Assembly (NCBI RefSeq): GCF_041381155.1
Contig: NC_091142.1
Coordinates: 25,736,963 to 25,800,962 of the forward strand
DNA from: Argopecten irradians
Lineage: Eukaryota; Mollusca; Bivalvia; Pectinida; Pectinidae
Length of the DNA stretch: 64,000 nt
Direction: 5' to 3'
Shown: positions 2,210-58,420 of the stretch, piece after piece
Layout of the letters: every line of letters begins with the position of its first letter
Position numbering within the stretch: position 1 is the stretch's first letter
Translations under genes and position numbers: made by a program
Notes under the pieces: generated by a model
Databases searched by the model: none
Told to the model about the DNA's origin: nothing
What the model saw: the letters and a program-made list of their open reading frames with translations, nothing else

Positions 2210-3643
2210 TTGAAAATATGTTCAAGAATGATTACAGTAGTCCTTTTGATGACAGTTTTAAAGATAATATTTCAGGTAAAGTTACAGAAAATAAGTCAAC
2301 CTTGCGAAGCTGATACGTTTTTAGAGGAACCCATTTCTATATCTGAGGTGAGGAACATTCGTAATAAGTTACAGATCAATAAGTCAGGGGGTCAAGATAG
2401 TCTTGTTTATGAACATCTGAAATTTGGGAATGTGGTGTTGTATACTCATCTATCAAATTTATTTAATGCTGTAGTTAAGTGTCGTTACGTACCAGCAAAA
2501 TGGAAAATGGGCACAATAATAACATTGTATAAGGGAAACGGTAAACCTGAAGATGATCCTAATAGCTATAGGGAATTAACTCTTTTTACCTGTCATTTTT
2601 AAAGTATTTGAAATGAATTTAGCCAAGAGATTGCAAGCAGCCCTTAATTCTAATAATTTTCCGAATAGACATCAATCAGCATATCAAAAAGACCTAAGTA
2701 GTCTGTTAACTTCATTTAACTTACAGGAAAGTATTAATAATAACCTGGAAAGATAGGAAGATGTTTATATAAACTTCCTCGATAGTAATAAGGCATTTGA
2801 TACAGTGTGGCACGATGGGTTACGATATAAACTAAATAAGATCGGTATAACGTCAAAATCATAGCATATTTGAAATCAATATATACAGATATAACAAGTT
2901 CTGTTGTGTTTAATGGCTGGAATTCAAGATGGATACGGATGGAGAGAGGGATTTTACAAGGGAGTGCGTTGTCTGTCAAAATGTACTTAGTGTTTATAAA
3001 TAATTTATTAGACATAATTGAAAATTGTAATTATGGTGCGCTTGTTGTGGATTTAAGAATCAACGTACGAACACAAGCTGATGATATATGTCTAGTTAGT
3101 ACACAGCGTAAAAGTTTACAAAATATGCTTGATATACGTGATTTATACAGTAAAAAGTGGCGCTTCACATTTTCTGCAGTTAAAAGTAAAATAATGCGTT
3201 TCACAAGAACAAAGAAGCGAAACTGCGTTGTTAGAAATCTGTATCTATATGAGCAAATTCTTACTGTAGTTAAGGACATCACACATGTTGGTGTGATATT
3301 AAATAATAATTGTAACAGTATGGAACGCACAGTGCGTGCTTGTAATAAGCTTAGAAGTGGCGTCATGAGTTTAATCAGAAGCGGTGCTCATCCGTGTGCC
3401 TTAAATCCTTTGACTGTGTATAAAGTAATTAAATCAAAAATATATGCTTCTGTCCTGCATGGCTGTGAATTGTGGTGCCTTCCAAAATGTAAACTTACAA
3501 TGCTAGAAAGAGCTCAGAGGTTTATTTTAAAATCAATTCAATGGTTTCATACAAGAACTCGTACGGATATGTGTACGGGACTTCTTGGATGGTTCAGTAT
3601 AGAGGCATATATAGACATGAGGAAATTGATGTTTTTTTGGTAG
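2210..3643 (+). pseudogene. LINE reverse transcriptase domain, frameshifted
   Basis: Successive RT blocks are visible: SGGQDSLVYEHLKFG, then PAKWKMGTIITLYKGNGKP with DDPNSYR (about 2390-2575). After a frameshift comes a KVFE start followed by FPNRHQSAYQ (about 2600-2690), then motif A as FLDSNKAFDTVWHDGL (about 2775-2822). The next open frame (2870-3643) has GILQGSALS (motif B), QADDICLVST (motif C with both catalytic Asp) and KWRFTFSAVKSKIMRF (motif D). Both Asp of motif C and the first Asp of motif A are kept, but at least three frame breaks or stops separate the blocks. Open runs on the other strand here are shadows. Confidence 0.9.
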
Positions 3644-15530: not shown

Positions 15531-16380
15531 ATTTTTATCAGTTTTACTTTATTCGATTACATTTAAAGTTATACTTGAATAAATATTACTGATGAGCTTA
15601 TGTATTTGGGTTTTATTCCAACCGCGGGGCGCGGGGGATTATGGTGGGCTTTGCGACTCATCGTTTATTTAAATTTTGCAATCGATATAATTACATATAT
15701 ATTGATAACCACTTAACAATCGTTCATAATCAACCATTAATCAACAACACCAGCATTCGAACCGACCTTATTTTATTTTAATGAATGATTCATAATACAT
15801 GTATATGACGAACAAATTATGTATGGAGAGACAACCAAACGATATATGTGGGAATTACTATTCAGAATGTCCACAACCATGTCTTTTATTCGAGAGCTAA
15901 TGTATGGCTTGTAGCTGGTCATGACGGAATTGACTGTATGGTTCATAGTGATTATACTGTCGATTGCTAGCGATTTGCTGTATGTATCTTTCGATTATTT
16001 TCATCATATTAGATAGAGGTGTACCAGTGCTGTGTATATTATATTAAGACACATTTAATTGATTAAATTTTACAATTTAAATTTAATTCTATTTTAAATC
16101 TTACTCGCACATATAACGAATACAAAATAACAATAAACGTATACAGAGGAGTATATCTAGAGTTTTTACGACGTTATTAATAATTATTGATGTAAGATGT
16201 GTCTCAAGGTTCTACATAATGTGCATTTAACCATATTTCCATCATTTCAATCCTAGTTTTTAGGTCACCATGACCTATCCTATTTAGGCCATGGGCTAGG
16301 AGGGTCCCACATGCACCCCCCCCCCCAAACCTCCGAACCAATATTTTTCTTAACCCTTATGACCCACTGATCACAAATCA
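15531..16380. other. Intergenic stretch, no gene seen
   Basis: AT-rich sequence with a short C run near 16315-16326. A fragment TAGGTCACCATGACCTAT at 16261 resembles the end of the 14467 element. Nothing else recognised. Confidence 0.6.
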
Positions 16381-17110
16381 AAATGTTAACATTGCATAAG
16401 TTGGGATGAACTTCCGGTTATGACGTCATCAAGAGGGCCGCCATCTCGAATTTCACTAAAAAATGAAAAATAGTCGTAACATTGACATTTTTTCAACCGA
16501 CGTAGACAAATGAGGTATCAAAATGACCACAATAGACCAACAAATACATATCAGAACCAAATAATACAATATATGTAGTGATTTTTACGCAGGAAATGAA
16601 AAAATCGGATTTTAAGTTCAAAAATGGTGAATTTTCAGCAATTTTTTCATATTTGGCTTGACGCAGCAAAAATGTTTTCCAACAGAAATCTAGTATTTCT
16701 CATATGTTTTTTTACCTCTTATCAATCAGTTTTTATAACAACAACAACAAAAACCAATGTTAACATTGTATAAGTTCCGGTTATGACGTCATCAAAATGG
16801 CCGCCATCTCTAACTTCACTAAAAAGTGAAAAACAGTCATAACATTGACATTTTTCAACTGAATTAGACAAATGAATGATCAAAATGACCACAATAGAAC
16901 AACCAATACATATCGGGACCAAATGATCCAATATATGTAGTGATTTGTACGCAGGGAATGAAAAAATACGATTTTAAGCTCAGAAATGGAAATTTTTCAT
17001 ATTTGGCTTGACGCAGCAAAAATATTTTCAACAACAAAAAATTATTATTTGTAATCAGTTATTTGATCTCTTATCAATCAGGAAAAACAAAAACAAAAAT
17101 ATATAGAAAT
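16381..17110. repeat. Tandem pair, about 375 bp x 2
   Basis: Two diverged head-to-tail copies starting near 16381 and 16756. Both share AATGTTAACATTG, AAGTTCCGGTTATGACGTCA-like bases, GGCCGCCATCTC, CAAAATGACCACAATAGA and TTTCATATTTGGCTTGACGC. Each copy has a TGACGTCA (CRE-like) palindrome. The CRE-like site is a sequence observation, not evidence of regulation. Confidence 0.88.
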
Positions 17111-17349
17111 GCAAAAGAGAATTATTTTTATACCCTCATTAGGTTTACAAAAACATCACCGGGTGCGTATACAGGGCATATGATTGTTATCTAAGTGGGA
17201 CTTCAAAATAATCCATTTCCATGCTCGAAATTTTTTGAAAAAGTATTTCTATCTTGTTATTGGATGCTAAATTAATATTCTAGGAGATATTCACAATTAA
17301 CTTGATAAGCTAATTTTAAAGTAATCTATTAGATATATTTAGCATATCG

Positions 17350-17381
17350 ACTCGGTGTTTCCATTTTTAGAAACACCGAGT
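17350..17381. other. 12-bp perfect hairpin
   Basis: ACTCGGTGTTTC and GAAACACCGAGT form a perfect 12-bp stem with an 8-base loop. No U tract or gene end lies next to it, so it is not called a terminator. It may be the end of a small element. Confidence 0.7.
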
Positions 17382-18610
17382 TAATATTCCTACTGTGGCG
17401 TCACTCCCAAGTCAATATTGCGATTGTGACGTCACACTATCCCAACGTTGAGTTCTTCGGCAATATGTAGTCGAGTCATTCGCCATGCAGTTCTATATCA
17501 TGCAGAGTATTCGGTCTTTGCATTCAATTATCACACCATGTGGACGGTTACTATTAGTATAATATTCTCCCATCATTATAAAAACCTTATGTGCAGTCAA
17601 AAATCAGTATGAACTGTGATGAATGTTATCAAACAATTATCATATTGTAATTTACAGAGTAATCGCCCTTTACAATAATAATAATATCTAGCCTTATCAT
17701 GTGAACACCAACTATATAATTTGAGCATGCTCAGACAATATTCACGATTCAATTGGGGCATGTCAACATACTATAGGAATGTTTTATGTGGATAACACAA
17801 ACAATTCTGCGAAACAGGTCCCGACATGGTCATTTTAAGCAAGTCTGGCGAATAGGGAATCAAATGTAAAATGTTAACATAGCATAAATTAAGAAGACAG
17901 ATATGATAAATACATGTACAGTTGATCATGACATAACGTTTCTATACGTAAGTATGGTCACGGATCAGACAAAAATTACTTAAAAGAGCACTGCGAGAAG
18001 CGCGGAAGATTGATTTAAATCTGTTTACTGTTCTTACTGTTTAAGTAAAACCAACATGAAAGTCGATTTAAAATCCAACTTAAAAGATTAAATCGTAACC
18101 AAGTTGAGACTGTCGAAAGTGGTTCATTTTAAATTCAGAAGGAGTAAATATTGAGAAATAAATAAAACGAAAATAGGAACTTATTACTTATGTCGAAGTT
18201 TGATGCAACCTGCGAAAATCAACATTAGAATAAAATGAAATATAACAAATTCGAAGCTAGGTAAACTTTTAATTGTAAAGTGTCGTTTAAAAGGAATTGA
18301 CAACGCAAAGAGCGACAATAAAATAGGTGTTTGTGTTGTAAACCAAACGAGTAAGTCGTGTTAGAACACTGACAATTGAAAGAGGGCGTATTTCCGGTTG
18401 GTTAAATAGCCTTCAAAAATAAACTTTCGGGTATTACAAGAAAAGGCCAAATATTGTGTGTAAGAAAATATAGATAAACAAATGTAAATAATAACTTCAA
18501 ATAGTAAATAAAACTCAAAACGTGGGAACGTTACAAAAATAAATTGTTAGTCACTGAAATATCTCTACAGTGTTTATCACAAGAACAGCAGGTTTCAAAG
18601 TAAACTGCAG

Positions 18611-18622
18611 ATGGCCTCACAG
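18611..18622 (+). CDS. Tctex gene A first exon, copy 1 (MASQ)
   Basis: ATGGCCTCACAG followed by the donor GTATGTAC, with G at +4 of the start codon. The same exon and donor are kept exactly in the duplicate. Splicing to GAA ATG AGA at 25765 keeps frame. Confidence 0.72.
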
Positions 18623-21600
18623 GTATGTACTTAAAATAACTTAAAGATGCTCCACCGCTGACAAATAGTATTTTTTTCACTATCAAAAACAAGAGCAGAC
18701 GATTAAGTATTTTTCTTCAGTTACAAAAGTTACTTACTTTACACCATTACCAACATTGAGAAGTTTCAGCTTCTAATTTTACTTCAAGTTAAATATATGA
18801 AAAAATCCATGACTGTAAATGGAATGAAGAACTGATTGCGCCTGCACCAAAGGCAAAATAATCTTTTTTATTTTATTTTTTGTGTGTAAATTAGACATAA
18901 ATATACACGATTAAACACCAATTATTGTTCAAATGATGAATATCATTTATGCTCTGTCGGCGGTGGAGCATCTTTAATAAGAATCTTTTTGTTTTCGTAA
19001 ACTGCTACCCTGGAGTTAAATGGTCTTTTTCTGCTTTGGTTATGGATATTGCTGTTTTGCTTGTTGGCAATCACGTGTTTGTGTATGTATATCTATTTGT
19101 AAGTTTTTTGATGTTTAAATGTCATTAGGGCTTCTTTTTTAAAATATTTTTTATCACGGTTTGTTTATACACAGCAAAAATTGCATACACGTTTTACGTA
19201 CGTCATAAAACACGTGTAAAACTGTGATGAATGTTATCAAACAATTATCATATTGTAATTTACAGAGTAATCGCCCTTTACAATAATAATAATATTTATC
19301 ATGTGAACACCAACTATATAATTTGAGCATGCTCAGACAATATTCACGATTCAATTGGGGCATGTCAACATACCATAGGAATGTTTTATGTGGATAACAC
19401 AAATAATTCTGCGAAACAGGTCCCGACATGGTCATTTTAAGCAAGTCTGGCGAATAGGGAATCAAATGTAAAATGTTAACATAGCATAGATTAAGAAGAC
19501 AGATATGTTTTATATGATAAATACATGTACAGTTGATTATGACATAATGTTTCTATACGTAACGTATGGTCACGTATCAGACAAAAATTACTTAAAAGAG
19601 CACTGCAAGAAGCGCGGAAGAACGATTTAAATCTGTTTACTGTTCTTTAAAGTAAAACCAACATGAAAGTCGATTTAAAATCCAACTTAAAAGATTAAAT
19701 CGTAACCAAATTGAGACTGTCGAAAGTGGTTCATTTTAAATTCAGAAGGAGTAAATATTGAGAAATAAATAAAACGAAAATAAGAACTTATTACTTATGT
19801 CGAAGTTTGATGCAACCTGCGAAAATCAACATTAGAATAAAATGAAATATAACAAATTCGAAGCTAGGTAAACTTTTAATTGTAAAGTGTCGTTTAAAAG
19901 GAATTGACAACACAAAGAGCGACAATAAAATAGGTGTTTGTGTTGTAAACAAAACGAGTAAGAGTCGTGTTAGAACACTGACAATTGAAAGAGGGTGTGT
20001 TTCCGGTTGGTTAAATAGCCTTCAAAAATAAACTTTCGGGTATTACAAGAAAAGGCCAAATATTGTGTGTAAGAAAATATAGATAAACAAATGTAAATAA
20101 TAACTTCAAATAGTAAATAAAACTCAAAACGTGGGAACGTTACAAAAATAAATTGTTAGTCACTGAAATATCTCTACAGTGTTTATCACAAGAACAGCAG
20201 GTTTCAAAGTAAACTGCAGATGGCCTCACAGGTATGTACTTAAAATAACTTTAAAGATGCTCCACCGCTGACAAATAGTATTTTTTTCAAAAACAGGAGC
20301 AGACGATTAAGTATTTTTCTTCAGTTACAAAAGTTACTTACTTTACACCATTACCAACATTGATAAGTTTCAGCTTCTAATTTTACTTCAAGTTAAAGAT
20401 ATGAAAAATAATTAATTGCATCCCGAAAAAAATCCATGACTGTAAATGGAATGAAGAACTGATTGGACCTGCACCAAAGGCAAAATAATCTTTTTTATTT
20501 TATTTTTTGTGTGTAAATTAGACATAAATATACACGATTAAACACCAATTATTGTTCAAATGATGAATATCATTTATGCTCTGTCGGCGGTGGAGCATCT
20601 TTAATAAGAATCTTTTTGTTTTCGTAAACTGCTACCCTGGAGTTAAATGGTCTTTTTCTGCTTTGGTTATGGATATTGCTGTTTTGCTTGTTGGCAATCA
20701 CGTGTTTGTGTATGTATATCTATTTGTAAGTTTTTTGATGTTTAAATGTCATTAGGGCTTCTTTTTTAAATATTTTTATCACGGTTTGTTTATACACAGC
20801 AAAAATTGCATACACGTTTTACGTACGTCATAAAACACGTGTAAAACGAATGTTGAGGACCACGCATGTAAAACGTACCTAAGAAACGTACATGCATGCA
20901 ATACGCGTGGTAAACATGCGTAATACGCATGGTAAACAGACGTAAAACATGCGTTTATTAAAACGCATGTAAAACGGACGTATCAAAACATGTGTTATAC
21001 ATACATTTGATCCTTTTAGAAAATCCATATTTTTTAGGTACATTTACATGGTCTTTGAAGCTGCACCATATATTTGTCATTTCCAAAAGTAAAGTTTAAT
21101 TCCATTTTATTTGTTTTTTCGTTTCCTTTTTTTATTTAAGATATTTGATTGCGTAATTTTATATGCAATGGAATTTGGCACAAGTTTTCCAACGTTTATG
21201 AAGCCCTCTCCCTACAGAATTGTAATTAATTATATGACAAAGAACACAAAAATGGCAAAAATATACATATTTACATGATTTTAGAGAGAAAGAGAGAGGG
21301 AGAGGAAGAGAGGGAGAGGGGAGTATTTGTTTATTTTAACATATCTATATAATTTCTTAATTCATTGATATACATGTATTTGTAATCACTCCCGATGCTG
21401 ACGACCGAAGTTGTACTAATCGCTGTTCTTGTCTCGTTGCTTTACTTAAAGTTCATCACATCCCGTGCCTTGGTATCTTTCTCCTGTCAATCTGGTGCTT
21501 TCTTGATAACGTTTCTCTTCTGTCGCCAGTATCGGAAGGATATATAGAAACTTTTTTTTCGTTTCCTGTCCAATGACTGATATTTTTTCATACATAGTAT

Positions 21601-24600
21601 GTTGTTTTTACATCCGTGAAAAAAGTACATGTCCAATGTACATGTAGCAAATGTTATAGTAAACGAGTTGTTTAATTTTTTACACCCGCTTTGTCAAAAT
21701 GATACCATGGGCCTTGTGCTTTGCCAATGATTGTATCATTGCAGCTTTGGAGTAATAATCGACATTAACAACACTGTAAAATGTACAGTATAGTTAAAAG
21801 ATATATTTTTAATTCCGTCTAAAACAAATCTTACCGCGATGTAGCCCTCACTTGTATACCGCAATGTAGTCCACACTCGGAACGCCTCGGGTGTAAGTGT
21901 CGTACATTCATCCGATGATCTAACATTGTGAACGTGTTGAACAGTTTTTTTACATAGCAACCTTTATTCATGTTCATCCAATTTTTAAAATACAAATCAA
22001 ATCATTAAAAGTACAATCGCAACTCCTCGGATGTAATTGCCGTTATCTTTTACCTCCGAGGAGTTCCGATTGACAAGAATATATACATACACTATAAGCT
22101 AGCACAGGCGTCTGGTTTTGGAAAAAATACAATAACCTACTCCTACTATATAGTAGCGAAGGCTATTTTTTTTAATTATCAGAAGTAGATCCCTGTTGCA
22201 ATAGCGACGGAATCGATGTCATCGATGTAGCCTTGCACAAGTCCCCAAATGCCTCAAATGACTTGAACGTTTCAAGAAAAATTCTAATGAAAATCTGAAG
22301 TAAAAATGAGTTATCTATTTTCTAGTTTACAAAATAAATACATCTAAATACACTTTTTTCTTTCCCTATGCATTATGTAGCTACACGTATAATCCTTAGC
22401 TACATGTATAATGACAATTTTAAGACACATGCTCATGATCTCGTAGATCAATCAACAGTTGTAGACCTACTACATCATGAACCGCTGGTCAACTAATATT
22501 GATCATATGTATTTAGAGCATTAGTCTTCAGAACTATTAAAATTAAAAGGTGGTGTTCAAGCTAATGTTAAAAATCCCATAGAAACTGCCCACAGCCCAA
22601 TTTTCTTGAAACTTTGCATATTGAAAGTACTACTAGTTGTCCCTTTAAAATGACACTTCTTTATTCTTTTGTGATTTTAAAAAGGCCCAAATGGCCTGAA
22701 TTCTTTATAGTCACTTTCATTAAAACTACCTGCACAAACATGCCAAAAAAGGTTAGCCTTTGTTAAATATTCTACATTTTTTTTTTATTCATAAATCATT
22801 TGAGTAGATCGTATACTTTATTTTTAACGGATTTTTAACGGAAAATTTTGTTTGAAATAATATTTTTTACGAAAAAGTAATACTTTTTGCGAAAAACGAA
22901 AACGGAACATTGCTCTTTATCTTATTTCACCCTGTTACTGGTTTTGTCCACAATTTTACACCCCCCCCTATTTAAAAATACTCCCATGACATTTTCTGTC
23001 TATGTGTAAATTAGGTTCAAAATTAAAATCCGGGGAAACTGTTTTGAGTGACTTAAAAATAGAGACTACATGTAGCAACGACCACTTCTTTGTAAGTATA
23101 CCTAGTTATACAGTTCTTGTTTATGATTCCAGAGTCCGATATACGTGAAAATCAGTGTACAGTAATAATTTTAGATGCTATATATCATGGTAACACCTTT
23201 TAAAATATTGTTTGCCATGGTAACAAAACGGAGGCCTCTGATTGGCTGAAATTTAAATGATGTCAGAATTAAGTGAAAATTGGTATATAGATGTAACGAG
23301 GTATGCTGAATAACATGGTAACACTTTCAAACAGATGGGTTGCCATGGAAACAAAATGGAGGCCTCTGATTGGTTGAAATTTAGATATTTTCAGATTTAA
23401 GTGAAAATTGGTATATATGGGTTATGAAATATGCTGAATAACATGGAATCCCTTTTTAAAATATTTTTTGCCATGGAAACAAAATGGAAGTCTCTGATTG
23501 GTTGAAATTTATATATTATTACAGAGTAGATATTAGTGAAAATTGGTACATATGGGTTATGGGGTATGCCGAATGAGATAGTAACAGTTTTAAATACATT
23601 GTTGCCATTGTTTCGAAATAAAAGCCGTCGATTGCTCAAAATTAATATTGTAGTCTTTGTGGTGCTGGTATTATTTTTAAATAATACATATTTTATTTGA
23701 AAATCAAATGTAACTCTGTTTCCGTCTTTAATCATTTTTAATTCAATTTAAGATGGTTTCTATCTACATAAGAGAGATGGATAATCTTAATTTGTATCTT
23801 TTGAGTTTAAGATGCTGACGAAAATACATTTCCTCCCAATAATTATTTATTTCTTACCAATAATTATTTGATTTCTGATAAGAAAAGAGAAACTATTTGT
23901 TTCACCCAAGAGCATATCTAGTTGTTAGGCTTTTTTATACTGTTAAGGAAGATGCATGAATAGAAATGCAATAATTTTAAATTTGTTTGTTTGTTTGTTT
24001 GATTAATTAACGTCCTATTAACAGCCAGGGTCATGTAAGGACGGCCTCCCTTGTATGCGGTGTGTCGTGTGTATGTTGTGCGAGGTACGTGTTTTGGGAG
24101 ACTGCGGTATATTCATGTAGTGTCTTCTTGTATAGTGGAACTTTTGCCCTTTTTATAGTGCTATATCACTGAAGCATGCCGCCGAAGATACCAAGCAACA
24201 CACCCCACCCGGTCACATTATACTGACAACGTTCGAACCAGTCGTCCCACTCCCTGTATGCTGAGCGCTAAGCAGGAGCAGAAACTACCACTTTTATAGA
24301 CTTTGGTGTGTCACGGCCAGGGGAAAGAACCCAGAGCCTTCCTCACAGGGGCGAACGCTCAACTCATGGCCAAAAGTGAGGTGGGACACATTAGGATCGG
24401 TTAGGAAGAAGAGAAAAGATAAGATCCTAAATTTAGTCGCCTTTTACGATCATGCAATAGGGGCAGCAGGTACAATTCTAACGCCCTACCTGCAGGGCCT
24501 ATATAGTACAGATGTTAGTTAACAAAAAATTCTATCTCTAACTGTTGTTTTATTATGGTGTTTATGATCAATTTAAAATTTATGGTCAACTAGGGCAAAT

Positions 24601-26619
24601 ATTGATATTTTAGAAAATTCCCCTCGCTACATTTCAGCCTATGAAATTCTATTTTCCCGGATTTCATTTTTTTTTGAAAAAGTATCTGTTATAAGATTAT
24701 AAATATGGCATGTTTTTAAAATGGTTTTAAAGTGTGGACAAAAGCGATAACATGCCAAATATTTCGAGCAAACCCAATATCCTCAATTTTTATCCTGACA
24801 AAAATTTCAGATTTTTTTGCTTCAAAATCAATTTGTCTTAAAAATAATTCTTAAATATCATAATAAATGGATATGAAATAAAGAATGAAGTATCTTTTAT
24901 TAACACAAATAATTAAAAAATAAAATTATGTTCAAAATATGGACACAAGGGGTCCCCTTGCCACATACCCAAAGTAATTTTAGAAAACATCATTTTAGGC
25001 CCTTTATGCCTTTTTAAAAAATACAAAATAAATAAAAAGCACATAAAAGTAGTTATGTACCTAGACCTTAACACTGCAAAATTTGAAAAAAATCGGCGCG
25101 TGGGCGGATTTTGTAACCCCACCTTTAAACAGACGGAATCCATATTAGTGGTTTTGCTTTTCTTCACAATCAGCTACATGTAGATGTATATATAATCGTA
25201 GACCTACATGTATCATCATACGATATTGAATTCGAAGCTGTGTATTATTCTATCATGAGGCTAGTATGAGGTTCACTATTTAGGATTTTTTGTTAAAAAA
25301 AACCCACTGCAGGTCTTCAGTAACATTGATAAAACTAATATTTTATATGTAATTAGTAGGGTTATTTGAACTGACGGAGTATTTTTACATTTGCCGCATA
25401 AATATGTTTTATGTCTGATTATAAACATCCGATTTACACATGTTCTCAAAGTTCGTTTTACATGTGGTGGAAAACAAACGTTTAACGAATGTCTTTGGTG
25501 GAAAACAAACGTTTAACGAATGTCTTTTATTCAAACGTACGTTTTACGCATGGTGGTCAAAACGTACATAAAACGCATGGTTTAAACATATGTGTAGCGC
25601 ATGTTCATGTAAAACATGCGTTGCACTTTTTGCTGTGTATGGTTTAATTGCGGAGAGTTTCATTTGATTATTTTTTACTTTTCAAATTACTTGTATAGCT
25701 AAATTGAAACTTGTAAAAGTCAAAATATTTACAAATTAAAATATCTTTTTTTTCTTTTTTAAAGGAAATGAGAGAAGATTTGGGTGATCAGCCCACGTCT
25801 TTTTTTAAAACTGCTTTGACGTTTGAGGATTATAAAGGTGGATCTCCTCAAAATTCACGCGATGCAAGCAAACCGGACAAACCGGATAAACCGGAACCAG
25901 AACGTTATGGTCCTAATGGATCAAAAAAGCATACGGATTTGGGAACAGAAACCAAAAACCTTCCAGCCCTAAAATCAGATGTTTCAGACCAAAATGCACA
26001 TACGATGCTGAATAAAATGACTGCCCATATCCGCGTCCAATCGCCAGCGTTAGTAAGTGCTTTAAAATCGGATGTAAAACCTGAAAGCGAGAAATTGTAC
26101 CGGGGGCCTCAAACCAATAAATTGCTGTCGGTTTTTGGCCGAGAAAAATCGACATCCTCACAAGATGGCGACAGTAGTGCAGGAAACATGATGCAAATGA
26201 TCAAGCTGAGAAATATCGCCCGAAATGTAAAGCACATACAGCAAGATCGCCAGAAACGACTGGAGAACACGGGCAACGTGACAATATACGACAGATTCAG
26301 GAAATTTGACCACAAAGAAGCAGAGGAAAGCATGCGGTTCGTCCTACAAAGTTCCTTAGAACATGTAGTGTACGAGCCTAAGAGATGTAAAGTCCTATCA
26401 CTACAGCTCAGTGATACGATTAGGAACACTATCAAACGGATGAAGTTTCCCAGGTACAAGTTCGTATCGTTTGTGACAATCGGACAGAAAGGAAATCCGA
26501 ATGTCGTCGTTGCTAGTAGATGTGTATGGAATACGGATGATGATAGCTTTGCTAGTGTCACGTATGAAAACAAGACGCTTTTTGCCAATGCTGTAGTATT
26601 CGCAATGCTTCACGAATAA
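18611..26619 (+). CDS. Tctex-1 domain dynein light chain-like protein A
   Basis: A 12-bp first exon (ATG GCC TCA CAG, MASQ, followed by GTATGT) joins in phase 0 to the exon at 25765-26619, giving 288 aa. Residues 1-170 are hydrophilic, low-complexity and probably disordered, with a proline/lysine run (SKPDKPDKPEPERYGP). The C-terminal ~105 residues are a Tctex-1 fold: VYEPKRCKVL, LSDTIRNTIKRMKFPRYKF, VASRCVWNTDDDSFASVTYENKT and the final VVFAMLHE. The family dimerises on dynein intermediate chain and acts in cytoplasmic or axonemal dynein; long N-terminal extensions occur in the TCTEX1D group. An identical first exon exists at 20220-20231, so two start regions can serve one protein. Cilium or flagellum use is inference. 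Confidence 0.85.
18641..18977. mobile_element. MITE family A, copy 2
   Basis: TTAA, then AGATGCTCCACCGCTGACA; ends GGCGGTGGAGCATCT, then TTAA. Opposite orientation to the copy at 10349. Begins 19 bp after the MASQ exon, in the intron. Confidence 0.93.
20220..20231 (+). CDS. Tctex gene A first exon, copy 2 (MASQ)
   Basis: Exact duplicate of the exon and splice donor at 18611-18622, with about the same upstream 1 kb. It lies closer to exon 2. If both are transcribed they give mRNAs with the same protein and almost the same 5' UTR. Confidence 0.72.
20251..20604. mobile_element. MITE family A, copy 3 (duplicated with copy 2)
   Basis: Carried along by the 1.6-kb tandem duplication. Keeps TTAATTGCATCCCG, which copy 2 lost and which the independent copies at 10349 and 28937 match with small changes. 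Confidence 0.93.
21282..21323. repeat. GA-rich tract
   Basis: Purine run of GAGA, GGGA and GGAAGA units, a simple-sequence tract. Confidence 0.85.
23188..23645. repeat. Tandem array, about 125 bp x 4
   Basis: Units starting near 23188, 23314, 23442 and 23578 share CATGGTAACAC, TTGCCATGGAAACAAAATGG, CCTCTGATTGGTTGAAATTT and GTGAAAATTGGTATATA, most diverged in the last unit. The long - strand frame over it is a by-product of the periodicity. Confidence 0.92.
23982..24498 (-). mobile_element. SINE family S1, copy 2
   Basis: Same element and orientation as 12786-13314: (TTTG)n, GATTAATTAACGTCCTATTA at the left, CTACCTGCAGGGC at the right. Box B reads GGTTCGAACG on the - strand. No clear target duplication. 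Confidence 0.92.
25765..26619 (+). CDS. Tctex gene A main exon
   Basis: The acceptor TTTCTTTTTTAAAG has a strong pyrimidine tract. 284 codons and TAA follow, with the Tctex-1 fold at the C-terminal end. The ATG at 25768 could itself start translation if the short first exon is not used. GC content is higher than the flanks, as expected for coding DNA. Open frames on the opposite strand (26109-26588 and others) are shadows. Confidence 0.92.
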   Translation, partial: EMREDLGDQPTSFFKTALTFEDYKGGSPQNSRDASKPDKPDKPEPERYGPNGSKKHTDLGTETKNLPALKSDVSDQNAHTMLNKMTAHIRVQSPALVSALKSDVKPESEKLYRGPQTNKLLSVFGREKSTSSQDGDSSAGNMMQMIKLRNIARNVKHIQQDRQKRLENTGNVTIYDRFRKFDHKEAEESMRFVLQSSLEHVVYEPKRCKVLSLQLSDTIRNTIKRMKFPRYKFVSFVTIGQKGNPNVVVASRCVWNTDDDSFASVTYENKTLFANAVVFAMLHE

Positions 26620-32242: not shown

Positions 32243-35200
32243 GTAAGACGCTATTATTTATCATTATCGTCAACACTTATTTTTTCTTGAAATTCACTTG
32301 TCAAAACAGTAAGTTAAAATCACAATTTAACTGTTCATTTTATATCCGTAAGTTTATTTTTTCTCTATAATTCCGCTTATTAAAAAATGTAAATTATATC
32401 AAAATTCAATTCCGTAGTTTCAATTCCTATACGCTGTATTAAAATAGCATATCATACTATAGTTGTCAATTTATTTATCTCAGAAGAATGAATGTTTTGC
32501 TTCGTTATTTCTTCTAATTCGATAAATTTAAAGCGCTGATCCAAAACGTTTACAATTTTTCTTTCTTTGTATGTATTTCACTGTACAAATATTGTATTCC
32601 ACTAGCATTTTTTTATTGGATCACTTCGGTTTTGAATGATTTTTATCATGTACACGAACCAAACTTAGGCCAAAGTTGTGTGTTTTATGTTTTGCGTCCG
32701 TATGCTTTAGGTGTTTTGATCCCGGAAAGTGAAAACAAACACAGATATTTTTAATATTATCATTTTGAATGATAATGAAATAATAAAAAACATACAATTG
32801 GTAAAAGCTAAAATAATATTGATAATTTATTTTCTAAATATGGTCTAGCGTAATAAAATTAATCACAAATGTACTGTCATATTCTAACTTAACTCTGGGG
32901 GAATGATACTAATTCAATCCAGAAAAATGAAGAAATATTTCTAGTAGTTCATACCTATATCAAATTAAGTAAACGATTGTGTTAATACATTGTATGTATT
33001 TGAGGAAAAATATATATGTAAGCACTTAAAGTGTTTAATTTGCGTTATTACACTTCTGTTAATTAAACTAAATAATTTATTTTTGGAGAGCAATGTACTT
33101 TATCTATATCAATATAAACACCCAAGACTTTATTTTAGTTTCTGTATTTTATTTTTCATTAATTTTCTTTCCCTCTTTCTGTTAGTTTTTTTTCTTAATG
33201 ACTGTTAGGTCTCAGAAAAATAGTAAAAGAAGCAAAAAAGAAATAAAAATACTATGACATTATTTTGTTCATTCCTTTGTATACACCATTTGATAATAGA
33301 AAGTACTTGACAATGAGAACTTTTTTACTGTGTTAAATAAAAATGGAAATGGATTTTCTTGTGCTAAAAATTGTGTCAATTCAAAATTAATCAGTATTTC
33401 ATTAAATAGAAAAAAACATGTCTTAAACTCGTGTTAAAAATCTTGTCACTTATTGTATGGTTGTATATATATCTCTAATTTTCATTTTATTTTAATTTAA
33501 AATTTAATGCTATTGAGAATGAATCATTTTAATGGAATGAGTTTTTTTATCGTGTATCTATAAAAATATCCGAGAATGGCGCAAAAGAGCAAAGCATTGA
33601 TTTAGAAATATAATCCTTTGATAAACAATGGAGACGGACATCAAAGCTTATTTAATTTTGTAGCATTAGCGGGCAATCACAAAGGTTTGCAAGCAATTTA
33701 CTCAAAACCCGGTGAAATTGGCAAAACCCCTCTTAGTTGTTATATTTATTTGAAACAATAATAAAGTTATTACACTATCATGATATCGGGATATATATTA
33801 CAATTATCCTAGAGCGTACGCGTACATACTCTTTGAAGTCTGTTAGATTTAACTACTGAACTCTCATCACTTTGTTATTTCTTCTTTTACAGACTTCATG
33901 GAGAAACTCTTATTCGATGCGTATCCATTCGTTATCATGGCAGTGGCGATAACACGGTTTCGAGTTAGCATCTGCAAAGGAAATTCGGCGATTCTAGTCA
34001 CAACGTCGTCCGCCATAGCAACGTTCGCTTTGTGTCTGCTACCAACGTTCCTATCGGGCAGTCTGACGTTGTTTCTCTACTTCTATAACAACGTTTATCA
34101 ACACGACCAATCGGAGAGTCATTCAGAAGGACAGAGCGTCAATGAATGCCGAGCTAACTATAACAGCATGGTAAGAACGTACCACGACGTCGTATTCATA
34201 ACCTTGGAAGGATTACCTGTGCTTTTCACGATTTTCACCTACTGTTTGATTTACTATAAAGTGTCCAATCAAAGATCCAAGACAAGTACTATCCAAACTG
34301 GACGAAGGCGGCACCAGAGTACAGCCTTCATCTTGCGCGAATACAATATCAAGGCAACCGTTATTTTGATTATAACGGTTTTTCCGGTGACGTGGTTGAT
34401 GTACATGTTCCTAACAGTGTTGAATATATATTGTCCGGTGAAATTGGTCTCGTATTGTCTGATACTATGGAAGCCATTGGTCTTTGTAATACATCCGCTT
34501 GCGGAAGGACTTCTTTTGCAACAAAAGCGACAGAGACTAATCAATATTGTTTCTAAATACAACTTTTGTAAAGAAAAGAAACATTTAGACGATTCATCCG
34601 GAGCAGAAGACTTGATTGATTCGTCTGTCTTAAGACCTTCGCCCAGTTGTCCATCACTACTTTCAGTCCAAAGGGAAAATATTGAAACGATATCATTGAC
34701 TCCGGACAGTCAGACTAGATTCAGTATACCATTGCTTGATGAAGAAGTGGAGTTTAAAGAAGAGGTTTTTGAAGATGAAATAGCGCCGCTAGCATGTCTT
34801 CATACTAGACGCACAGGGAATCCGATATCTATGCTCTCGTTTACTGAAGTAAATCCGGACAATGAAGAAACGGATTTAAGAAGGAGAGCGTCTGAATCAA
34901 CTTTTATCCGCGTGCCTAGCCACTACTCACATAGGCGAAGGTCACTAACTATCTCACCATATCGGATACGCTGTGCTTCTGTAACTAGCTCATCCATCAC
35001 GGGTGATCCGATTGGTGTGGTGCTATCTACGAAAGCATTACAAACACCAAAGTCATGTCTGAAACCCTCCAGTCGGAGGAGATCTACAAATATCTCCGAT
35101 AAGCGTTCCTCGTGTAGTTCTTGCTATCTTCGAAAAGATGTATCCCCAATTTCGTCATTTAGTTTCAAGGATGTTGACGTTTCTCCTAAAGCATCGAAAA

Positions 35201-35316
35201 AGAACTCTGCAAAACATTCAGTTAGATTTGTTGGGTCGCCATCACCGAAAGATTCATCAGAATATAGGTGTTCCAGAATGAATGATTTACCAAATTTGTT
35301 ATCAGCACACTTTTGA
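31975..35316 (+). CDS. Divergent rhodopsin-like seven-transmembrane receptor (2 exons)
   Basis: Exon 1 (31975-32242) and exon 2 (33893-35316) join in phase 1 to give 563 aa. Seven hydrophobic segments lie at about 19-39, 51-75, 93-116, 122-154, 188-211, 243-266 and 273-296. Cys86 before helix 3 and Cys175 in the second outer loop can form the usual disulfide. Helix 6 has FPVTW and helix 7 WKPLVFVIHP in place of NP-x-x-Y. The DRY box is replaced by TRF, so coupling may be unusual. The N-terminus is only ~18 residues, without signal peptide. The 267-residue tail is acidic, then rich in Ser and Arg (RRRSLTIS, RRRSTNIS), with likely kinase or arrestin sites. It acts in the plasma membrane; ligand unknown. 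Similar lineage-specific receptors are common in molluscs (family knowledge). Confidence 0.87.
33893..35316 (+). CDS. Receptor exon 2 (helices 3-7 and tail)
   Basis: Acceptor CTTCTTTTACAG, 1424 bp to TGA. It carries the third to seventh helices and the whole intracellular tail without an intron. Confidence 0.9.
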
Positions 35317-47927: not shown

Positions 47928-48458
47928 TCATTCAAAGTAAACACCATACACATAAGCTGTAGCTATTGTCGTAGCGTTTCTGTACGTGTAGGAGGCAAAG
48001 TTGTCTGTGCTTGGGTTCCAAACACACCTGCTAGCTACTTCTACTCCTTGGTTCTTGTTCTCCATAATCAGCACATTACACACGAATTTGTAGCGTGGAA
48101 AGCCAAGAGCTTTTACCCTCTGGTTTATAACATTAGACAGATCGGTTGTCAGATTTTTCACAAACATTGCACGATATTTAAAATCACGAAGTCGGGCTTC
48201 TAAGATATCTTTTATGACCTTCTCCACTTTTGATGGTACGAACTTGGCGCCATCTGCCGGCTCTAGTCTATATGTATTCTCATACTGAATGGCCGGCTTT
48301 GATACGGCGTTTTGTGCAGCCTTTCTCTTAGCCAATCGCTGCCATGCTCTTGTAGCTGCTACAAGTTTGAAAAAGTTCATTCCAGTTGGCTTCGGCGTGT
48401 TAACCGACTTCTGTGATTCACTGGTCGATGTGAGTCGAGGTCTCCTCTCTTCCCCATC
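47928..48458 (-). CDS. Tctex gene B last exon
   Basis: Acceptor TTTGTCGATTGTAG (- strand), then DGEERRPRLTSTSESQKS leading to MNFFKLVAATRAW. The Met at 48380 is internal; the frame is open from the acceptor on. 176 codons, then TGA. Confidence 0.93.
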   Translation of the reverse strand, partial: DGEERRPRLTSTSESQKSVNTPKPTGMNFFKLVAATRAWQRLAKRKAAQNAVSKPAIQYENTYRLEPADGAKFVPSKVEKVIKDILEARLRDFKYRAMFVKNLTTDLSNVINQRVKALGFPRYKFVCNVLIMENKNQGVEVASRCVWNPSTDNFASYTYRNATTIATAYVYGVYFE

Positions 48459-57672: not shown

Positions 57673-57910
57673 GCTGATGTGGATTCACAAGTTACCTTAA
57701 ACAATGAAACACAATGATGAAAATCAATATGGAAAGTATGGAACAAGTTGTGTGGGAAGTGATCAATCAATATGAGTCCATCAAAAGTTACTAAAAGCAA
57801 TAAAATACAACAATGGAATTTTATATTGAAATTATAGAACAAGTTGGAAAGGAAACGATATGGTTTCATCCAAAGAATGAAATAGAATTATAAAACTTAA
57901 TATAAAAAAA

Positions 57911-58420
57911 TAAGGGACGAGTTAACTTTTTGAGATCGGTATGGGAAAAGGTTACCAAAAGCTAAACTTAACATGGAAAATAAGGGACGAGTTAACTTTT
58001 TGAGATCGGTATGGGAAAAGGTTACCAAAAGCTAAACTTAACATGGAAAATAAGGGACGAGTTAACTTTTTTTGAGATCGGTATGGGAAAAGGTTACCAA
58101 AAGCTAAACTTAACATGGAAAATAAGGGACGAGTTAACTTTTTTTGAGATCGGTATGGGAAAAGGTTACCAAAAGCTAAACTTAACATGGAAAATAAGGG
58201 ACGAGTTAACTTTTTTTGAGATCGGTATGGGAAAAGGTTACCAAAAGCTAAACTTAACATGGAAAATAAGGGACGAGTTAACTTTTTGAGATCGGTATGG
58301 GAAAAGGTTACCAAAAGCTAAACTTAACATGGAAAATAAGGGACGAGTTAACTTTTTGAGATCGGTATGGGAAAAGGTTACCAAAAGCTAAACTTAACAT
58401 GGAAAATAAGGGACGAGTTT
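57911..58420. repeat. 70/72-bp minisatellite x 7, upstream of Tctex gene B
   Basis: Seven nearly identical units start at 57911, 57981, 58051, 58123, 58195, 58267 and 58337, with a partial at 58407. Lengths are 70, 70, 72, 72, 72, 70 and 70; the 72-bp form has two extra T in the T run before GAGATCGG. Units begin TAAGGGACGAGTTAAC and end TTAACATGGAAAA. Worn units lie at about 57780-57905 and 58480-58600. Long open frames on both strands here come from the repeat and are not genes. Begins 239 bp upstream of the gene B start codon. Confidence 0.97.

Follow-up and report, generated by a model that had tools for sequence, protein, structure and literature searches.

Two 1.6-kb units of DNA lie head to tail upstream of a dynein light chain-like gene of the bivalve Argopecten irradians, and the arrangement raises the question of whether one coding exon has acquired two start regions in the animal or whether two alleles have been set side by side in its assembly. 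The locus was analyzed within a window of 64,000 bp (C9:25736963-25800962) from an assembly of 846 Mb in 1508 contigs; 5000 N, possibly a scaffold gap, occupy C9:25800963-25805962, directly past the window end. In the downstream coding exon, residues 186-279 of the product match PF03645 with an E-value of 1.1e-25 and 90.2 bits (curated cut-off, 22.8 bits), and by this domain score the predicted product is a member of the Tctex-1 dynein light chain family, its best solved-structure matches being flagellar outer dynein arm light chain 2 and DYNLT2B. The exon has one match at 100% in the assembly, the other 14 matches being 26-43% identical. A second Tctex-1 gene (window 47928-48380, minus strand; PF03645 E 1.1e-30) lies on the opposite strand, some 21 kb farther downstream, and is 40% identical to the first over the matched stretch. 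The window also includes a large rhodopsin-type receptor reading frame (33898-35316, plus strand; PF00001 E 5.9e-9).

Self-comparison of the window returned a single direct pair of adjoining 1.6-kb stretches (17612-19222 and 19220-20847), with 95.4% identity including gaps and an E-value reported as 0 for this self-comparison. Global alignment of the two units yielded 1566 matches, 23 mismatches (14 transitions and 9 transversions among 1589 compared bases), and 10 gap runs, six in unit 1 and four in unit 2; one of these runs is the terminal AAC, three bases within which the breakpoint can be placed at any point. Both analyses confirm the head-to-tail duplication claimed in a preliminary description of this DNA, whose limits of 17615, 19223, and 20847 denote the same junction within the AAC ambiguity. 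In an all-against-all listing of matches of at least 120 bp at 90% identity or more, covering about 169 kb of bases, no other non-overlapping pair in head-to-tail order has a unit longer than 1 kb, and the remaining long direct matches are offset overlaps of the kind seen in short-period arrays. Separately, at window 57907-58419 a 70-bp unit is repeated 7.2 times in tandem with 99% matches, and the other four rows of the tandem-array listing show 79-84% matches. Selective constraint on the candidate exon and its upstream DNA was considered and rejected, for the interval 18391-18691 has no substitution between the units, but 18841-19145, composed of element and intron, likewise has none. Going upstream from the ATG, the first difference between the units is met at 18390, about 220 bp away.

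Table 1. Features of the duplicated region and its surroundings, in window coordinates
Feature	Position	Strand	Description	Basis
Left-side piece recurring inverted beside the third copy	15885..16284	+	399 matches, 1 mismatch, one 10-bp indel	
Dispersed repeat, left side of the window	16276..17236	.	at least 39 other places at 87-95%, from the best 40 of 4939 candidates scored	
Left flank	17239..17611	+	assigned to haplotype 'A'; 97.0% identical to its counterpart beside the third copy	
Unit 1	17612..19219	+	1608 bp; assigned to haplotype 'A'	self-comparison, global and three-way alignments
Candidate first coding exon, copy 1	18611..18622	+	MASQ, donor CAG/GTATGT	
MITE-like element in unit 1	18636..18977	.	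inverted ends; starts 13 bp past the donor	
Element start at the end of unit 1	19168..19219	.	first ~52 bp of the dispersed element's left end	
Unit 2	19220..20847	+	1628 bp; assigned to haplotype 'B'	global and three-way alignments
Candidate first coding exon, copy 2	20220..20231	+	MASQ, identical donor	
MITE-like element, second copy	20245..20604	.		self-comparison
Transposable element	20793..25640	.	TIR-like ends, ATACACAGCAAAAA at both ends; nested repeats ~22546-25126	
Tctex-1 coding exon	25765..26619	+	284 aa, then stop	PF03645

Several repeats lie in and around the units (Table 1). Among the matches listed, the MITE-like element occurs in at least 38 other places at 83-88%, and the left end of the large transposable element in at least 40 other places at 81-86%. 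The right breakpoint (20847) falls about 55 bp inside this dispersed element end. Since unit 1 carries the start of the same element, the tandem arrangement is younger than that insertion; and since unit 1 stops there while unit 2 continues into the whole element, the new junction joins the end of one unit to the start of the next. The left breakpoint is within DNA that has weak similarity (62-63%) to repeated stretches in the 3742 bp beside the third copy described below. At the junction there is a microhomology of 3 bp (AAC); among 100,000 junctions drawn at random in this window, 6.8% show microhomology of at least 3 bp, and the AAC match is weak evidence. Elsewhere, a reverse-transcriptase match (window 2870-3640, plus strand; PF00078 E 1.7e-8), in one of several short neighboring reading frames, is probably a retroelement remnant, and two 470-bp direct repeats, 99.6% identical and about 5.8 kb apart (window-relative -61783..-61314 and -55991..-55522), could be the termini of a young LTR element.

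A genome search revealed a partial, inverted third copy at C9:25691274-25692535, about 62 kb upstream of the units, in which 379 bp of left flank continue directly into the unit's first 883 bp; its homology ends 118 bp before the candidate exon (18492 to 18611). Aligned with unit 2, this copy shows 882 matches, no mismatches, and one 1-bp indel; aligned with unit 1, it shows 854 matches, 16 mismatches, and six indels. In a three-way alignment, every one of the 16 variable substitution columns separates unit 1 from unit 2 and the third copy, as do five of the six indel events. The preliminary description had held that the private small indels of each unit exclude an assembly artefact. This argument fails, given that substitutions and indels alike join unit 2 with the third copy over the 882 bp they share: two alleles laid adjacent by an assembler would differ in the same way, so the indels exclude no assembly error.

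The surroundings of the third copy are less uniform. Its left flank, compared with that in the window, differs at 11 of 372 compared bases (361 matches, two gap runs), whereas the piece farther to the left, at 15885-16284, is 99.75% identical, and between them a different stretch of 3742 bp occupies the place of the window's dispersed 0.96-kb repeat. A simple inversion polymorphism was not supported as the origin of the third copy, the homology with the window ending at 15885 and at the equivalent of 20101; the approximately 3 kb past the latter point match only themselves among the best 40 of 6936 candidates scored. A second copy of the Tctex-1 gene behind the third copy was rejected, none of the 14 lesser matches to the exon being near it.

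Most simply, units 1 and 2 appear to carry two haplotypes, A and B, that diverged before the tandem arrangement arose. The third copy cannot derive from unit 2 in its present setting: unit 2 is preceded by unit 1, whereas the third copy adjoins the left flank. Most likely, then, there existed a chromosome on which flank B led into unit B. Both unit types and one B unit joined to a left flank are seen, although the third copy is itself no allele from a second individual. Owing to the uneven identity noted above, some mosaicism must be added to this two-haplotype picture.

Our preferred reading, held at a confidence just short of even, is that the arrangement represents a real and recent heterogeneous (two-allele) tandem duplication. 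Unequal exchange or a template switch between two diverged homologous chromosomes would have joined the right breakpoint, inside the repeat-rich transposon end, to the left breakpoint via the AAC microhomology, producing a chromosome on which flank A is followed by unit A, unit B, the transposon, and the Tctex-1 exon. Speaking for this reading are the third copy, with its unbroken join of flank to unit and its match to unit 2, the clean end-to-start junction with its microhomology, and continuous sequence: no N occurs in the window, the junction included, or in the 80 kb upstream. The join would then be present in the animal, and transcription would cover the upstream DNA and first exon of each unit. 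A message started in unit 1 would skip the second candidate exon (exon 1b), for which no upstream acceptor was identified, and splice to 25765; either of the identical donors would be available to such messages.

The haplotype split is predicted equally by an assembly join. In a heterotype false duplication, each chromosome would bear a single unit, allele A on one and allele B on the other, and a contig ending in A would have been set beside a contig starting in B with the 1.6-kb overlap left unmerged; the third copy would be either another misplaced piece of haplotype B or a separate real duplicate. Errors of this kind are known from long-read assemblies: false duplications, mainly heterotype, amounted to 0.3-2.3% of three VGP long-read vertebrate assemblies, and 61-92% of them were on the same scaffold (Ko et al., 2022; PMC9516828). 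As in the cases described there, which often lie within the same scaffold, a single haploid assembly would present two alleles as though they were paralogs; unlike the usual case, the present pair is gap-free between the copies, and gaps are among the marks of false duplication that these authors give (Ko et al., 2022; PMC9516828). A gap is not a strict requirement, and gap filling could have erased one here. The differences between the units, which split by haplotype, and the position of the right end in a dispersed repeat, together with the weak repeat similarity at the left end, fit such an error and weaken the case for a real duplication. Contigs also tend to end in repeats. Running counter to an assembly join are the continuity of the sequence, the microhomology at the junction, and the lack of a second near-identical Tctex-1 exon in the assembly, so that a larger leftover haplotig of the gene is not seen. 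The join is a serious contender that we consider somewhat doubtful; both accounts fit, and we lean slightly toward a real duplication.

Whether the duplication also doubles a first exon is a separate matter. Each unit contains ATGGCCTCACAG followed by GTATGT, reading ATG GCC TCA CAG ahead of the donor, and both candidate exons are 12 nt long and end in phase 0. The acceptor, TTTTTTAAAG ahead of GAAATGAGA, opens the Tctex-1 exon in phase 0, reading EMREDLG, and is preceded by a long pyrimidine tract and AG. From either copy, the predicted splice would give MASQ-EMREDLG, in agreement with the preliminary description, which had proposed a doubled first exon in phase with the Tctex-1 exon. The present intron is enlarged by the MITE-like element and the large transposable element; without the identified insertions it would be about 330 bp (13+194+123), a plausible older length for a first intron.

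A 12-nt reading frame could nonetheless arise by chance. In that case the gene would begin at the ATG at 25768, or in another, unseen exon farther upstream, and its first exon would be unrelated to the duplication, an alternative compatible with any account of how the units arose. A scan for reading frames that run in phase 0 from an ATG through 2 to 50 codons to a donor of equal quality, scored with a weight table, found nine pairs across the window, seven on the plus strand and two on the minus, so that one per 9 kb is not rare. Within 17000-25764 on the plus strand, however, the two identical MASQ copies stand alone, against a mean of 0.35 expected by chance in 100 first-order Markov sequences, and the spacing of the older intron and the quality of the acceptor also argue against chance. 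A chance frame is distinctly possible, if on balance doubtful. The exon call is therefore a modest one, drawn from a 12-nt reading frame with a good donor and backed by these statistics.

Two further accounts of the units are less probable. In the first, which we consider unlikely, a natural duplication anchored in the transposon would have fused two divergent regulatory alleles in cis before a single coding exon, creating on each chromosome that carries it a permanently 'heterozygous' promoter with the protein unchanged, and the inverted third copy, of the same haplotype, would have arisen as a side product of that template switch. The second, an ordinary homogeneous tandem duplication later reshuffled or diverged (whether by the third copy converting unit 2, by a crossover replacing the left flank and unit 1, or by plain divergence), could draw on the perfect agreement of unit 2 with the third copy at every aligned base of the shared stretch and on the mosaic look of the uneven identity with the third-copy locus, but seems quite improbable, since divergence on both units predicts some differences in unit 2, where none of the 16 variable columns has one, since gene conversion would have to span the whole homologous stretch, and since conversion and crossover alike need extra steps.

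As a class of event, the arrangement belongs with known kinds, being either a heterogeneous tandem duplication (Milesi et al., 2017; PMC6121789) or a heterotype false duplication. For example, the heterogeneous duplications of mosquito ace-1 are described as joining two already diverged alleles on one chromosome, as would be the case here, with unequal crossing-over in heterozygotes given as the probable cause (Milesi et al., 2017; PMC6121789). Unlike ace-1, the scallop locus has its upstream DNA and candidate first exon doubled rather than the gene and is not known to be under selection, and the join is seen in the assembly. Another parallel is offered by tandem first-exon arrays, such as those of the clustered protocadherins and the Dscam 5' cassettes of Chelicerata (PMC4835542), in which several starts likewise share common downstream exons; the copies in those arrays yield isoform diversity, whereas the two candidate exons here encode the same four residues and would add no protein diversity.

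The preferred reading of a real two-allele duplication, taken together with MASQ as the first exon, would give the gene two putative promoter/start regions for one protein. The protein would be identical from either start; the probable effect would be none, or a slight change in dose or regulation, with neutrality as the simplest expectation. If real, the duplication would be a young case of two regulatory alleles locked together before one gene and would be useful for asking whether duplication can fix promoter heterozygosity. If it is an assembly join, the locus offers a compact example of how small differences between tandem copies are no proof of duplication in a polymorphic species.
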